Positions 1 through 5,376 of a stretch of DNA of 43,453 nucleotides are shown piece after piece; position 1 is the first letter of the stretch, and each line of letters begins with the position of its first letter. The stretch is from an uncultured Bacteroidia bacterium. Its GTDB lineage: Bacteria > Bacteroidota > Bacteroidia > NS11-12g > UBA9320. The notes beneath the pieces were generated by a model. It was not told the DNA's origin and made no database searches. It saw nothing but the letters and a program-made list of their open reading frames with translations. The position numbers and the translations under genes were made by a program. The stretch is from the NCBI GenBank assembly GCA_905478335.1, contig CAJQIC010000002.1:1-43453 (forward strand). Reading direction: 5' to 3'.

Positions 1-116
1 ACGGTCACAACTTAACTTACGCCTTAGAGTTAGATCCTACTGCTGGATCTTACGCTCAAATCGATTTCGATGAAGACGTAACGTTAACAATCACTTACAC
101 AATATCTAACCTTTAA
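1..116 (+). CDS. 3' end of a small secreted subunit-like protein (partial)
   Basis: The frame is open from the window edge to the TAA at 114-116, so only the last 37 residues are visible. The tail has an alternating hydrophobic pattern and ends TLTITYTISNL. It closely resembles the tail of the gene at 3841-4404 (YLTITYTISD, with GHQLIYEL matching GHNLTYAL here). It is therefore a paralogue of that small secreted protein and part of the same locus. A strong terminator follows directly. The function is not known. By context it may be a surface or pilus-like subunit; that is inference. The paralogy rests on direct comparison of the two translations. Confidence 0.75.
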   Translation, partial: GHNLTYALELDPTAGSYAQIDFDEDVTLTITYTISNL

Positions 117-122
117 TATCTT

Positions 123-147
123 CTAGTTACCTCTCTGGGGTAACTAG
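123..147 (+). repeat. Perfect 9-bp inverted repeat (stem-loop) after the partial gene
   Basis: CTAGTTACC at 123-131 is the exact reverse complement of GGTAACTAG at 139-147, with a 7-nt loop. It has no T-tract of its own. It sits between the stop codon and the terminator hairpin at 164-193, so it may be a 3'-end RNA hairpin that protects the transcript or aids termination. Confidence 0.6.
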
Positions 148-163
148 CTATTACAATACTATT

Positions 164-193
164 AGGTCGCCTCCAAAGAGGTGACCTTTTTTT
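164..193 (+). terminator. Rho-independent terminator
   Basis: AGGTCGCCTC (164-173) pairs with GAGGTGACCT (178-187) across a 4-nt loop, with one G-U pair. It is followed by a run of seven T ending at 193. It would end the transcript of the partial gene at 1-116 and separate it from the pseudogene/usher-like operon. Confidence 0.85.
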
Positions 194-329
194 GTCGGGT
201 CAACACACCGCAAACCCAACGCTGTTCTCTTATAGAGACACTTTAAAAAACCGTGAAAAAGTAATATTCTAAAGGTGGTTTGGTTTTTGTTGATTCGTAT
301 ACTAGACAAACATTGTATACACAGAACAT

Positions 330-1133
330 ATGAAACATTTATTATCCTTAACTCTAGTTCTTATATCATTCACAATGGCAAACGCAAGTTTGGTTATTGT
401 AAACGGCCTTTCACATTAGCACACCGTGCAAAATGGCCTAAAGTCTCAAGGTTCGATAATCATCAAAAACACTTCTGAGACCTCTAGAAGAGCCAGAATT
501 TACAAAACTGATGTAGTACATAAATGCGATGGGCAAACAACATTTGTTGAAGGTTCAGAGCGAGACCGTTGTAACTCTGAATGGACGTTGCTCTCAGACA
601 ATGAGATAATAATAGCATCTAAACAATCTTATACCTTAACCTATGAATTGAACCCAGGACAAGATGTTGAAGGCGTTTGAAGCTACTGGGGTGTTATCAT
701 GGTAGAAGAGATTAAAGACCTAGACACCATAAGCCCTCAGAGAGGTGTAACCGTAACTTCTCTTATTCACTACGCGATTCAAATTATTTCCAATTTTGAT
801 TCAGAATCAGTTAAAGATTTAGAAATTTTCGGTGTCGACATCGACACAACCAAAGAAAACAACCTAGTTTCTATTAGCGTTAACAACAAAGGGAACTTCA
901 TGTTGAAACCAATCATGATTCTTGAATTGTACAACGACCTAGGCGAACAAGTATATCGAACTGAAATCCCATACCAAAAAGTATATCCAGGCTTCTGCAA
1001 GTTGTTTGAACTTTCCATTAACGACGTTCCAAAAGGTACGTACAATGGTATAATAGTGGCGGATTGTGGAGATGAAAACATCTATGGAATAAACATAGAA
1101 ATAGACGTCCCAGAACCTAAAACAAAAATTTAA
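330..1133 (+). pseudogene. Periplasmic chaperone-like protein, broken by two in-frame stop codons
   Basis: One reading frame runs from ATG 330 to TAA 1131-1133 (268 codons), interrupted by TAG at 417-419 and TGA at 678-680. No frameshift is seen. It starts with a signal peptide (MKHLLSLTLVLISFTMANA). Then come SLVIVNGLSH-stop-HTVQNG, a Cys-containing Ig-like domain with ERDRCNSEWTLL, a segment ending GQDVEGV-stop-SYWGVIMVEE, and a second beta domain ending EIDVPEP. The SYWGVIMVE block and the two-domain layout recall a family of Bacteroidota periplasmic proteins similar in outline to pilus chaperones; that assignment is from memory of the family. The fragment after the second stop has no signal peptide and could not be exported alone. 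The next gene begins 5 nt downstream. Single substitutions can explain both stops, and the lack of indels suggests recent decay. Confidence 0.8.
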
Positions 1134-1138
1134 CCTAT

Positions 1139-3844
1139 ATGAGACATAGGCTCTACATCAGGGCTGTTTTATTCGCATTAATTCTTACGAGTGGCGCAGC
1201 ACAGGCACAAATTAGCCTTACGCTGTCCAACCTGCCTGAAGGTGAAGTCAAACCAGGAAAAACCCAAACTATTGTTTTAAACGTCGCAAATAAGACGAAA
1301 GACACGCTAGACCTTCGTTTAGATTTAAAAATACCTAAACCGCTTAGGGCACTAATATTTAACAAAAAAGTCAACCTTTTACCCAATAAAAGCTCTCCAC
1401 TTCTCATCCCGATATCAATCCCACGTGCTACTACATCTGGCAATTATTCCCTTGAATTTGGGATTAAGCAAGACGGAAAGTCCCTGGCTACCCAAAAAGT
1501 GAGTTTCGCTATTGCAAAAATTACCGATGTAAACGTAGAACTTATTGAATACCCACCTTATGCCAGATCTGTGGACACGATTAAAGCCCGGTTCATGATT
1601 ATGAACAACGGTAATGCGCCGGAGCAGCTACTGTTAACAAGTAGAAACGGCATAATCAAAGCCAAAAAATTACAAACCATACCAGCGGATTCAACCGTAT
1701 TCATAGACATGTGGATTCTTAACGACCCCAAAACGTATGAAGTTGAAGATCAACTTATTGATTTGTTCTGCGACATTACAGACATCAGCCAATCTGTAGG
1801 AGACCAAGAAATTATCAAGGTGTACCCAGCACGTACTGTTAAAGTTGATCCGTTTTTTCGCTACCCAATTTATGTGAATGCGAGTTATTTTACTCAAAAC
1901 ACGAACGGTGCTTTTTACAACACGATTACGCAATATCAAATTTCAGGAAAAGGCCCACTCGATATAAACAAAAAGCACAATTTAAATTTCGCTTATCGTG
2001 GCCCTGGTGCAGTGCGAATTACTCGGATAGGTAATTTTTCACAAAAATTCGTTCACTATAGTACGAACAAAACAAATGTGTTTATAGGCGAGAAAACCTT
2101 TGGTTTGTCTGATCTTACAGAAAACTTCAGGTTTGGAACTGGAATAGAATTCAACACCAAGGTTCACAAGACCTTTTCATTTGGGGGCTATTACAATAGG
2201 CCTATTTTCCAACCAGAAATTCGCGAACAATTTGGAAGCTTCGTTAGCTACCATACGCAGAAGCAATACACCTATCGCATAAACTCTCTGAATAATTATT
2301 TAAGTGAAGGACAAACCATAAACCTAACGTCGCTCCAAGTTGACTTCACCAATTTTACCGATTGGAGATTTACTGCAGAGGCTTCTCGTAGTTTTAGCGC
2401 AGGCAAAGATGGAAGTGCTGCATCATACAACACCAACATAAGCTTTAACAAATTTAGACTAAGCAGCAGTGGACTATACGCCGACAAAAACTATAGAGGG
2501 TACTACAACAACTCGTTAAATTTAAGTCTAAACACGTCCTACACCATGGATAAGATTAGCTTTCAAGTGAATGGGAACTACTCCAACTCAAACCCCAACC
2601 TTGATACCGTATTTAGTGTTGCTCCAATATCTTTCTTTATGAGTGCTGGTGTTCTTGGCAAGTTTACAAAGCATTTTGACATGCAGGTATTGGGGGTGTA
2701 TAGAGAAAAAACAGATCGCCTCGCATCAAAGAATTTCGATTATACGGAAAACCGTGTTCGGTTAACAATGGGATACAAACGAGGCAAAATATCGTCAAGA
2801 TTCCTAACAGAAGCAGGAAATACAACAAACAAGCTTACTGTTGGATCTGCACAAAGTTTCGGTTACGATGCGCAATTACAACTGAGCTATCGGCCAAAAC
2901 CTAATTTTTGGATCTCCTCCTTTACGCAATACCTTAACAACAACAGATTTACACAAGAAACTGAGAAGTATTTACTTTATGGTATGGATGCCAACGTGCG
3001 GAAAGGGAAAAAATTCACCATGACGCTCGAGTTTCAAAACCAATACTTGGTCGAAGACCTTTACAATGACCGAAACTTATTAAACCTTAAACTAGGCTAC
3101 CAAATAACCCGACACCAACTGCTTCAGCTAACAGCCAACAGAGGTATCTTACACCAAGCTCCTGTCCGCAAAGACTGGTTCATTTCTGCAAACTACAGTG
3201 TAAGGTTAGGTCTACCGATGGTCCGCACGATGGCTTTAGGTTCTCTTGAAAGAAAGCTTATCAACGGTGGTGTTAATTCTGTTGACAATGTTGTCCTTAT
3301 GCTAGATGGGCAGTTAATAACCACCAATGAAGATGGTTCTTTCACCTTTAATAATGTTAGACCAGGCAAGCATCAATTATTCTTAGATCGAGCCACAATT
3401 GGTGTGCGAGACCTTCCGAATCAAAAACTCCCTATTGAGGTTGACATTTTTGCTGAAAAATCGAGTACTGTGTCTATTACCATGACCAGAAGTGCACGTG
3501 TTACGGGTCAGGTTAAGCTGGAAAAAGTCCGCTCTTTCCAATCGAAAAAGAAAGAAGTAAAACTCCCTTCCATTATTGTTGAAGCCTCTATGGGCGAAGA
3601 AAGCTTTTTGACTCGAGCAGATATGTATGGCAATTTTGTTTTTGGCAGCCTAAGACCCGGATTATGGAAAATTAGGCTAGTTCCCACATACTGGAAAGAT
3701 GACTTTATCATTAAAACGCCGTATCTTGAGATGGACTTAAAAGCTGGACAGGACGAAACGATTGAAATGAGTATTAAACCTAAACAACGCAGGGTGAAAT
3801 TTTTTAACAATTCGGGTAACCGCCTAAAAGTTGGAGGAAAATGA
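1139..3844 (+). CDS. Usher-like outer-membrane protein (Ig-like N-domains, barrel, two C-terminal beta-sandwich domains)
   Basis: 901 residues. A signal peptide covers about 1-23 (cleavage after AQA). Residues 25-225 form two Ig-like/NEW3-like domains (SNLPEGEVKPGKTQTIVLNV near the start). From about 235 to 690 there are many alternating Tyr/aromatic strands typical of a large outer-membrane barrel. Residues about 700-785 contain a carboxypeptidase-regulatory-like fold (TTNEDGSFTFNNVRPGKHQL), and 785-885 a second one (GNFVFGSLRPGLWKIRLVP). The N-domain, barrel and two-C-domain order parallels that of fimbrial ushers, and a chaperone-like pseudogene precedes it. No plug domain or clear usher signature was recognised, so 'usher-like' is inference; it could be a different barrel transporter. 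Its stop overlaps the next start as ATGA (3841-3844), implying translational coupling. Confidence 0.65.
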   Translation: MRHRLYIRAVLFALILTSGAAQAQISLTLSNLPEGEVKPGKTQTIVLNVANKTKDTLDLRLDLKIPKPLRALIFNKKVNLLPNKSSPLLIPISIPRATTSGNYSLEFGIKQDGKSLATQKVSFAIAKITDVNVELIEYPPYARSVDTIKARFMIMNNGNAPEQLLLTSRNGIIKAKKLQTIPADSTVFIDMWILNDPKTYEVEDQLIDLFCDITDISQSVGDQEIIKVYPARTVKVDPFFRYPIYVNASYFTQNTNGAFYNTITQYQISGKGPLDINKKHNLNFAYRGPGAVRITRIGNFSQKFVHYSTNKTNVFIGEKTFGLSDLTENFRFGTGIEFNTKVHKTFSFGGYYNRPIFQPEIREQFGSFVSYHTQKQYTYRINSLNNYLSEGQTINLTSLQVDFTNFTDWRFTAEASRSFSAGKDGSAASYNTNISFNKFRLSSSGLYADKNYRGYYNNSLNLSLNTSYTMDKISFQVNGNYSNSNPNLDTVFSVAPISFFMSAGVLGKFTKHFDMQVLGVYREKTDRLASKNFDYTENRVRLTMGYKRGKISSRFLTEAGNTTNKLTVGSAQSFGYDAQLQLSYRPKPNFWISSFTQYLNNNRFTQETEKYLLYGMDANVRKGKKFTMTLEFQNQYLVEDLYNDRNLLNLKLGYQITRHQLLQLTANRGILHQAPVRKDWFISANYSVRLGLPMVRTMALGSLERKLINGGVNSVDNVVLMLDGQLITTNEDGSFTFNNVRPGKHQLFLDRATIGVRDLPNQKLPIEVDIFAEKSSTVSITMTRSARVTGQVKLEKVRSFQSKKKEVKLPSIIVEASMGEESFLTRADMYGNFVFGSLRPGLWKIRLVPTYWKDDFIIKTPYLEMDLKAGQDETIEMSIKPKQRRVKFFNNSGNRLKVGGK

Positions 3845-4404
3845 AAAAACTAGTAGTCTTCTGTTTCATAACCTTTGCAAGTTTAGGCGCTTTGCATGCC
3901 CAATCGTATTGGAGTTATGATGATCATGGTTTGAGCCTCAAAATGCCTGAGATTAGTTTGATTAGTGTAATGCCAGCCAACTATACCGTAAACCTTTCTT
4001 TAGGTTTACCAGACCGTGCCGGCGACAAACCTGGAGAAACCGGCGATTCAAAAGATGATAACACCTGGTTAAATTATAGCTGTTCAAGAAAATATAGAGG
4101 GAGCTTCAAAAAGGTTTATGCGCAAATTACTTCAGGAAGTGTTCCGGATGGGTTGGCCGTCAATTTAGAAGTCAAAAATCTTCAACAAAATGGCCGTGGC
4201 ACCTGGGGTCGACGATATTCAAACTCCATAACCTTATCAAACCAACCACAAGTTGTTGTGCACAGAATCGGCGGAGGTTGCACACGAAGGGGTACAAGTT
4301 TTGGACACCAATTAATTTACGAACTCAAACTTACCGACATAGACCAACTGGTCGTAGATGACGATAAGACCTATTTAACCATCACCTATACAATTAGCGA
4401 CTAA
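3841..4404 (+). CDS. Small secreted protein, putative subunit of the usher-like locus
   Basis: 187 residues with a signal peptide (cleavage after about residue 20, LHAQ). The mature part begins with alternating hydrophobic residues (LSLKMPEISLISV). It has a Gly/Asp-rich linker (GDKPGETGDSKDD), two cysteines (NYSCSRKY and GGGCTRRG) that could form a disulfide, and a C-terminal strand YLTITYTISD. The C-terminal third matches the partial protein at 1-116. There is no T9SS sorting domain. The start overlaps the usher-like gene's stop (ATGA) and its own TAA overlaps the next ATG (TAATG at 4402-4406). Family unknown. A pilin-like or surface-subunit role is inferred from size, export signal, paralogy and operon position. 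Confidence 0.7.
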   Translation: MKKLVVFCFITFASLGALHAQSYWSYDDHGLSLKMPEISLISVMPANYTVNLSLGLPDRAGDKPGETGDSKDDNTWLNYSCSRKYRGSFKKVYAQITSGSVPDGLAVNLEVKNLQQNGRGTWGRRYSNSITLSNQPQVVVHRIGGGCTRRGTSFGHQLIYELKLTDIDQLVVDDDKTYLTITYTISD

Positions 4405-4865
4405 TGAAACAGACAGCACTTTGCCTCTTTCTTGTTTTGGCAGTAACGGCGGTATTTGGTCAACAAATTCGTATTCGTGGTAGTGTGGATTTTTCCTTCA
4501 ATTTAACAAACATTCAGCCTGGGGAAGACTACAGTGTAGAAACCGAAAGCAAACATGATGGTGTTCGGATGGATATAAAAAACTTAAGAAGACAGGCGTA
4601 TTGGCGTGTGACTGTAAACAAGTCAGACATCAATTGGGACAATAATGTTAAGATATACGTTAGGCGGACGAGTTCGGGAAACGGAAACGGTTCCCTTTGG
4701 GGTTGCTCCAACTACACACAAATTCGGAATATGCCGCAAACTGTGTTGCAAGGTCAAGGGGCACTTAATAATATTTACTTACAATACAAATTGGACGGAA
4801 TATCATTATCCCTACCTGCAAACACCTACAATACAGACATAATCTATACGTTGTATGAGCAATGA
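4404..4865 (+). CDS. Small secreted protein, second putative subunit of the usher-like locus
   Basis: 153 residues with signal peptide MKQTALCLFLVLAVTAVFGQ. The mature protein is beta-rich. It starts QIRIRGSVDFSFNLTNI, contains one Cys (LWGCSNY), and ends with an alternating strand, TDIIYTLYEQ. It has the same size class and a similar terminal-strand pattern as the 3841-4404 product, but it is more divergent, so the homology is suggestive. Its start overlaps the previous stop by one base, and its last 11 bases overlap the bioY start. No known family recognised. It is probably exported to the periplasm or surface by the same locus. Confidence 0.65.
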   Translation: MKQTALCLFLVLAVTAVFGQQIRIRGSVDFSFNLTNIQPGEDYSVETESKHDGVRMDIKNLRRQAYWRVTVNKSDINWDNNVKIYVRRTSSGNGNGSLWGCSNYTQIRNMPQTVLQGQGALNNIYLQYKLDGISLSLPANTYNTDIIYTLYEQ

Positions 4866-5376
4866 TGTAAGTAGCTCTTTTCTTAAGAAGTTCGTAATTT
4901 CTTTAATCGCATTAATGGCCATTGGCCCGTTATCCATCAACATTCCAACAGTACCGCTTACTCTGCAAACATTTGTACTGGTTGTTACGGCGTATTGGTT
5001 TGGATGGCCTTCGGTTATTGCAGCTGCCATTTATGTATTGGCTGGACTAACAGGTTTACCAATATTCAGTGGATTTGAAGCAAATACAGAAATCTTGCAA
5101 TCAACTTCTGCTGGTTTTGTTATAGGGTTTCCAGTAATGGCTGCCTGTATTTCTCTTGTCAAACGAAACACAAAAAGACTGACCTATCTCTTTGTCTTGT
5201 TTGTAACTGCGCACTTGGTTCTAATTTTGTTCGCATACCTATATAATTCATTATCGGGTTTGTCATTTCCTTCGTTGTCATACGTTTTCACCAATTTAAC
5301 GCCATCACTATTGGTCAAAAGCGCCCTAGCCGGCTTGGTTGTAAAATATGTCCGATTGCCAAACCCTCTGGCTTGA
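4855..5376 (+). CDS. bioY: BioY-family biotin transporter (ECF S component)
   Basis: 173 residues with about five to six membrane segments. It has the BioY hallmarks: PLSINIPTVPLTLQTF near residue 25, then YVLAGLTGLPIFSGF and SAGFVIGFPVMA. BioY binds biotin in the inner membrane; it works with a shared energising module (EcfA/EcfT) or alone. No EcfA or EcfT gene is nearby. The ATG at 4855 lies inside the end of the preceding secreted-protein gene (11-nt overlap), so expression is probably coupled to the usher-like operon, which is an odd setting for a vitamin transporter. The start is chosen because the first membrane helix follows soon after. The stop at 5374-5376 is followed by about 100 nt of non-coding DNA before the TPM gene. 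Confidence 0.88.
   Translation: MSNDVSSSFLKKFVISLIALMAIGPLSINIPTVPLTLQTFVLVVTAYWFGWPSVIAAAIYVLAGLTGLPIFSGFEANTEILQSTSAGFVIGFPVMAACISLVKRNTKRLTYLFVLFVTAHLVLILFAYLYNSLSGLSFPSLSYVFTNLTPSLLVKSALAGLVVKYVRLPNPLA

Follow-up and report, generated by a model that had tools for sequence, protein, structure and literature searches.

The genes at the start of a 43,453-nucleotide stretch of DNA from an uncultured Bacteroidia bacterium, referred to throughout as the window, raise the question of whether some members of the Bacteroidota assemble surface fibres by a route resembling the chaperone/usher pathway. The best-studied fibres of this phylum are the type V pili, and the cassette described here would represent a second, chaperone/usher-like route, and many genes now labelled 'hypothetical' or 'carboxypeptidase regulatory-like' would thereby acquire a function. 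The system is unnamed in both Pfam and NCBIfam, and a search of open-access titles and abstracts (most subscription journals lie outside that coverage) turned up no account of it. With a probability of about 0.7, the locus is best read as encoding a donor-strand machinery for fibre assembly, similar in operation to the chaperone/usher pathway and forming a separate, uncatalogued branch.

As in that pathway, a single operon unites genes for a chaperone, an usher-like protein and several subunits. This conserved operon occupies positions 1–4865 of the window, position 1 being also the first base of contig C2, and the gene coordinates bear out an earlier, preliminary description of the locus as a row of tightly packed plus-strand genes. 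The contig starts inside the gene for subunit A, of which the 3' end is present (1–116; subunit A profile match G000:C2:3-110, E = 4.7e-5). A terminator-like hairpin with a T-tract (164–194, plus strand), preceded by a second hairpin, separates it from the gene for a two-domain PapD/WxLIP-like chaperone (330–1133), the region 115–215 scoring z = −6.0; the equivalent gap of the related locus L009 also contains a hairpin (z = −4.1), and inspection by eye revealed hairpins in the corresponding gap of several relatives. There then follow genes for a 901-residue usher-like outer-membrane protein with a signal peptide (1139–3844), present as previously described, for subunit B, a secreted pilin-like protein of 187 residues (3841–4404), and for subunit C, a secreted protein of 153 residues from a nine-member family with the C-terminal strand YTLYEQ (4404–4865). 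Of the two to three small secreted proteins initially proposed, these last two stand; the third candidate (4855–5376, plus strand), which overlaps the end of the cassette, was rejected as a fibre subunit because its 173-residue product is a BioY biotin-transport protein (Pfam PF02632, E = 2.5e-19), and the system therefore has only two downstream subunits. A BioY gene directly downstream of the cassette is absent in L012 and L013. Bases 1–127 of the window recur in reverse complement at the end of contig C74, where they lie beside another subunit A gene, and contigs C2 and C74 probably join via a repeat within a tandem array of subunit A genes.

A full-length homologue of subunit A (188 residues) is located upstream of the chaperone gene in L009 and is 31% identical to subunit B of the window, itself a member of the subunit A family by a profile match of E = 2.9e-43, a value obtained with the window sequence included in the profile. 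Subunit C matched the A/B profile weakly (E = 3e-4); among the closer relatives, its gene is conserved at the end of the cassette. Examined by eye, the subunits terminate in a strand (TVTYTISD, for example), and their signal peptide is followed by an alternating segment; the signal peptides mostly end in AQ without a lipobox cysteine. A profile search of the PDB with the subunit alignment recovered no relative, the WxL family had no match among the subunits, and a comparison with FimA/Mfa-type subunits resulted in only two of 40 touching FimA-like_C (best E = 0.005). Further subunit genes of the family occur elsewhere in the window genome (L070–L072): three in tandem at C54:3889-5839, one at C3:30091-30627, and a full-length gene at C74:19202-19765.

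Among 58 genomes, comprising that of the window and its relatives, the barrel protein was present in six, and the order A–chaperone–barrel–B–C was recorded in five relatives wherever the contigs allow. Of the 395 Bacteroidota genomes sampled for a survey, 21 were matched by the barrel profile and 42 by the chaperone profile, the gene order recurring in approximately 5%; every one of 18 near-full-length barrel genes was accompanied on the same strand by a chaperone gene within ~0.5 kb, and several loci hold from three to about six subunit-family genes. With the exception of the chaperone gene, the cassette genes of the window are intact, and their divergence from the nearest relative, L009 (pS ~0.8; pN 0.11–0.18), indicates purifying selection. 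The conservation of gene order, which the preliminary description proposed as a check, is thus a matter of observation, and, taken together with the evidence of selection, the order in the five relatives and the 18 survey loci establishes that the gene set is real and far beyond chance.

The AlphaFold2 model of the 901-residue protein (pLDDT 85.4; pTM 0.61) places two Ig-like domains at the N-terminus (residues 25–125 and 131–229, encoded by 1211–1513 and 1529–1825), followed by a barrel of ~26 strands (residues 239–696; 1853–3226) and two C-terminal beta-sandwiches (residues 701–784 and 786–881; 3239–3490 and 3494–3781), all on the plus strand. The barrel and paired C-terminal domains previously proposed were thereby retained in the model, while the single Ig-like N-domain was replaced by two. 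A structural match to ushers was found by Foldseek, in which FimD/PapC structures filled places 1–11 (best E = 2.1e-15), LptD being the next group of barrels (7e-9); the low TM-scores of the usher model (0.2–0.3) and its pTM were nevertheless counted against a chaperone/usher reading. With VIA-align, the barrel was matched first to MtrB (Z 21.2) and second to PapC (Z 16.9; residues 236–880), with AlgE tied with PapC: since MtrB fits the barrel better than PapC, and AlgE equally well, the barrel alone is not specific to ushers. The PapC match covers the C-domains in addition to the barrel, and on the modelled structure it is this combination that constitutes the stronger argument for an usher.

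An insert of plug size was sought in vain, none of more than 12 residues being present in any of 22 members and no loop of the model barrel exceeding ~13 residues, which raises the question of how so large a pore stays closed. The resemblance of this plug-less barrel to pores of the MtrB/AlgE type lends itself to an alternative in which the barrel secretes individual beta-sandwich adhesins in a two-partner-like manner, the chaperone does no more than guard against misfolding, and donor strands are not exchanged. Such a secretion pore seems very unlikely in view of the dedicated chaperone with its conserved donor-strand-like motif (discussed below), the C-terminal sandwiches positioned as usher C-domains, and the multiple paralogous subunits per locus, and fibre assembly by donor strands is preferred to it.

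In Pfam searches, PF00577, PF13954 (PapC_N), PF13953 and PF00345 (PapD_N) had no match in the cassette proteins, and PF00577 was found in none of the 58 genomes; the positive controls FimD and FimC returned E = 1e-228 and 3e-38, respectively. Comparison by hhalign of the three alignments with single K-12 sequences of FimC, FimD, FimF, EcpB and EcpC likewise gave nothing significant. The N-terminal region of barrel proteins gave matches to NPCBM/Ig families, and CooC_C, the family found at the C-terminus of CS1-type ushers, was matched in two barrel proteins (best E = 1.3e-5, below the curated cut-off). The cassette resembles FimC–FimD and PapD–PapC in gene order, in chaperone fold, and in its large barrel with two C-terminal sandwiches, but differs from them in the ~26 rather than 24 strands predicted for the barrel and in the two Ig-like N-domains modelled in place of PapC_N; with the Pfam Usher and PapD families unmatched, the plug missing and the N-domain different, it is not a member of the classical family. 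EcpC of the E. coli Ecp system, grouped here with the class 5 and other alternate chaperone–usher systems, is similarly devoid of PF00577 and has a CarboxypepD_reg-like C-domain, but includes at 283–350 a TcfC E-set domain, an insert that the barrel family does not have. Barrel proteins of the distant loci L046, L048, L050, L053, L054 and L056 carry long C-terminal extensions; SPOR domains are present in those of L045, L046, L054 and L059, and C-terminal LysM domains in those of L049, L055, L057 and L058, either of which may tether some barrel proteins to the cell wall.

The structure of the chaperone was modelled on the intact homologue from L009 (pLDDT 90.7), and consists of two Ig-like domains in a PapD-like arrangement. 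WxLIP provided the best fold match (Foldseek E = 1.1e-14; Z 17.1), followed by the chaperone/usher pathway (CUP) chaperones CfaA (6e-11), CsuC (5e-9), Caf1M and FimC (2e-8), with Z values of 12–13. The PapD-like fold suggested for the joined frame is thereby recognisable in the model at Z ~13, although TM-scores were low (~0.5) and were again counted against a chaperone/usher reading. The sequence profile of the chaperone had WxLIP as its only confident PDB match (E = 3e-7, near-full-length). Weak Pfam matches to WxLIP_PGBD were recorded in nine of 23 chaperones (best 2.7e-6) and to WxLIP_HBD in five of the 23 (best 7e-9); neither family was matched by the L009 chaperone, and that of the divergent locus L084 matched WxLIP_PGBD above the cut-off. 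As judged by these profiles, the chaperone has a closer relative in WxLIP than in PapD.

The residue spacing of PapD served for comparison with a conserved motif of the chaperone, in which an arginine followed by a tyrosine is invariant in all 23 sequences, and the positions −7 and −5 are hydrophobic, again in 23 of 23, with mostly polar residues between. In CfaA, R125 stands in place of Lys112 of PapD, I118 and Y120 precede it, and the F1–G1 loop is long (PMC4133393). The spacing from −7 and −5 to the arginine equals that from I118 and Y120 to R125; two hydrophobic positions are conserved in the present chaperones, whereas CfaA needs four. At the level of sequence, the motif supports a role for this segment as a chaperone strand lent to subunits.

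The affinity with WxLIP proteins (DUF916–DUF3324; E. faecium 9i25/9i1y), which also comprise two Ig-like domains and are predicted to insert a beta-hairpin strand into WxL (PMC10599100), would tie Gram-negative pilus chaperones to Gram-positive WxL surface proteins. It also suggests an alternative, namely a WxL/WxLIP-like surface scaffold in which the two-domain protein stays on small beta-sandwich proteins, the barrel only exports or anchors, and no polymer is formed. Closest kinship by both sequence and fold, the Pfam matches to the two WxLIP families, and cell-wall-binding SPOR or LysM domains in several barrel proteins are consistent with a scaffold of this kind, which is considered unlikely all the same: WxLIP proteins have a C-terminal membrane helix, WxL partners and no outer-membrane barrel, whereas no such helix is present in the L009 chaperone model or sequence and no WxL genes were recognised; the invariant arginine is without a counterpart in the aligned WxLIP segment, which has alanine at that position; and the three to six subunit genes of several loci, including five in tandem, mostly near-identical, in L084, are what would be expected for a polymer. 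A donor-strand fibre system is favoured, its nearest known pieces being those of class 5 systems, with CfaA of CFA/I as the best CUP chaperone by Foldseek and CooC_C from CS1 CooC, together with the Gram-positive WxLIP. Type V pili (FimA/Mfa1) also belong to the Bacteroidota, and are likewise fibres of beta-sandwich subunits whose strands are thought to exchange. In P. gingivalis they are formed from precursors that undergo processing, and neither a chaperone nor an usher has been described for them (PMC5789003); the present cassette differs in having chaperone and usher-like genes, and in subunits that have no conserved lipobox cysteine.

The preliminary proposal of a surface-fibre system related to, or convergent with, the chaperone/usher pathway thus survives in its usher match, PapD-like fold and gene order, but requires amendment with respect to the BioY gene, the N-domain, the missing plug and the WxLIP-like chaperone sequence. 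Under the favoured donor-strand reading, subunits A, B and C would reach the periplasm via their signal peptides, where the chaperone would cap each of them by lending the strand that precedes the conserved arginine, with its hydrophobic −7 and −5 positions, the arginine itself holding the subunit's end. The chaperone–subunit complex would then dock on the 901-residue outer-membrane barrel, the Ig-like N-domains and C-terminal sandwiches of which may receive and pass on subunits; the N-terminal extension of the next subunit would displace the chaperone strand, and the growing fibre would exit through the barrel pore to the surface. Subunit A, set apart by the terminator-like hairpin, is a candidate for an abundant shaft subunit, with B and C as putative minor, tip or base subunits.

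Whether the copy in the window genome is itself functional turns on the chaperone gene, rightly described at the outset as broken. The suggestion of separate pieces to be joined did not hold, a frameshift being ruled out by the presence of both stops, TAG at 417–419 and TGA at 678–680, within one continuous frame (330–1133). In addition, codon 768–770 specifies histidine where arginine is invariant in 23 of 23 relatives. The chaperone genes of the relatives stay intact, and a search of the window genome revealed no second chaperone copy. Given two nonsense codons and no second chaperone, the cassette probably does not function in this genome, provided that the stops are not errors of the consensus; the adjoining genes remain intact and conserved, so that the loss is either recent or in part such an error. 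That the copy is really intact, the two stops being sequencing or assembly errors or read through, is a question independent of mechanism. The purifying selection on the remaining genes, the contig start adjoining the locus, and an in-frame stop in the related genome G004 all lend this some credence, but the concentration of both stops and the loss of the invariant arginine in a single gene renders it rather unlikely. The stop in G004 is a single in-frame TGA in the barrel gene (L009:7399-10101), other relatives having complete, uninterrupted sets, and the nonsense codons in the cassettes of these two related genomes may reflect decay or draft-genome errors.

Beyond the closer relatives, the divergent locus L084 contains, in addition to its five tandem subunit genes and chaperone gene, genes for a 934-residue barrel-like protein and a 477-residue, tip-like protein with a pilin-like strand at its end and no match in the PDB; L074–L076 and L080 carry a counterpart of 341–343 residues. 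We infer that the divergent proteins of 930–1240 residues are barrels because they have the appropriate size and position and match the profile in part. The divergent locus L081 includes a subunit (L081:6387-6971) that matches DUF4402 (PF14352; E = 2.5e-7), a family that the window subunits do not match. Chaperone homologues without an adjacent barrel gene occur at L077:6609-7514, L078:6777-7637 and L079:2213-3076, and were counted against a chaperone/usher reading.

A tblastn search of plasmids with the chaperone produced Deinococcus matches, while the same search with the barrel protein produced no match. Plasmid 2 of Deinococcus deserti (L087:8444-12831) holds a shorter cassette in the order subunit–chaperone–barrel–small subunit, in which the chaperone (E = 1e-51), the barrel (4e-38) and the small subunit (2e-5) were all matched, and two other Deinococcus plasmids contain chaperone and barrel-like genes. 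It may tentatively be suggested, at somewhat less than even odds, that the machine spans Bacteroidota and Deinococcota, that the ancestry of its chaperone is shared with WxLIP and not directly with PapD, and that with its plug-less usher it represents a separate or older chaperone/usher branch linked to WxL systems. The D. deserti chaperone is annotated as a FimB/Mfa2 family fimbrial subunit, which looks to be a misnomer.
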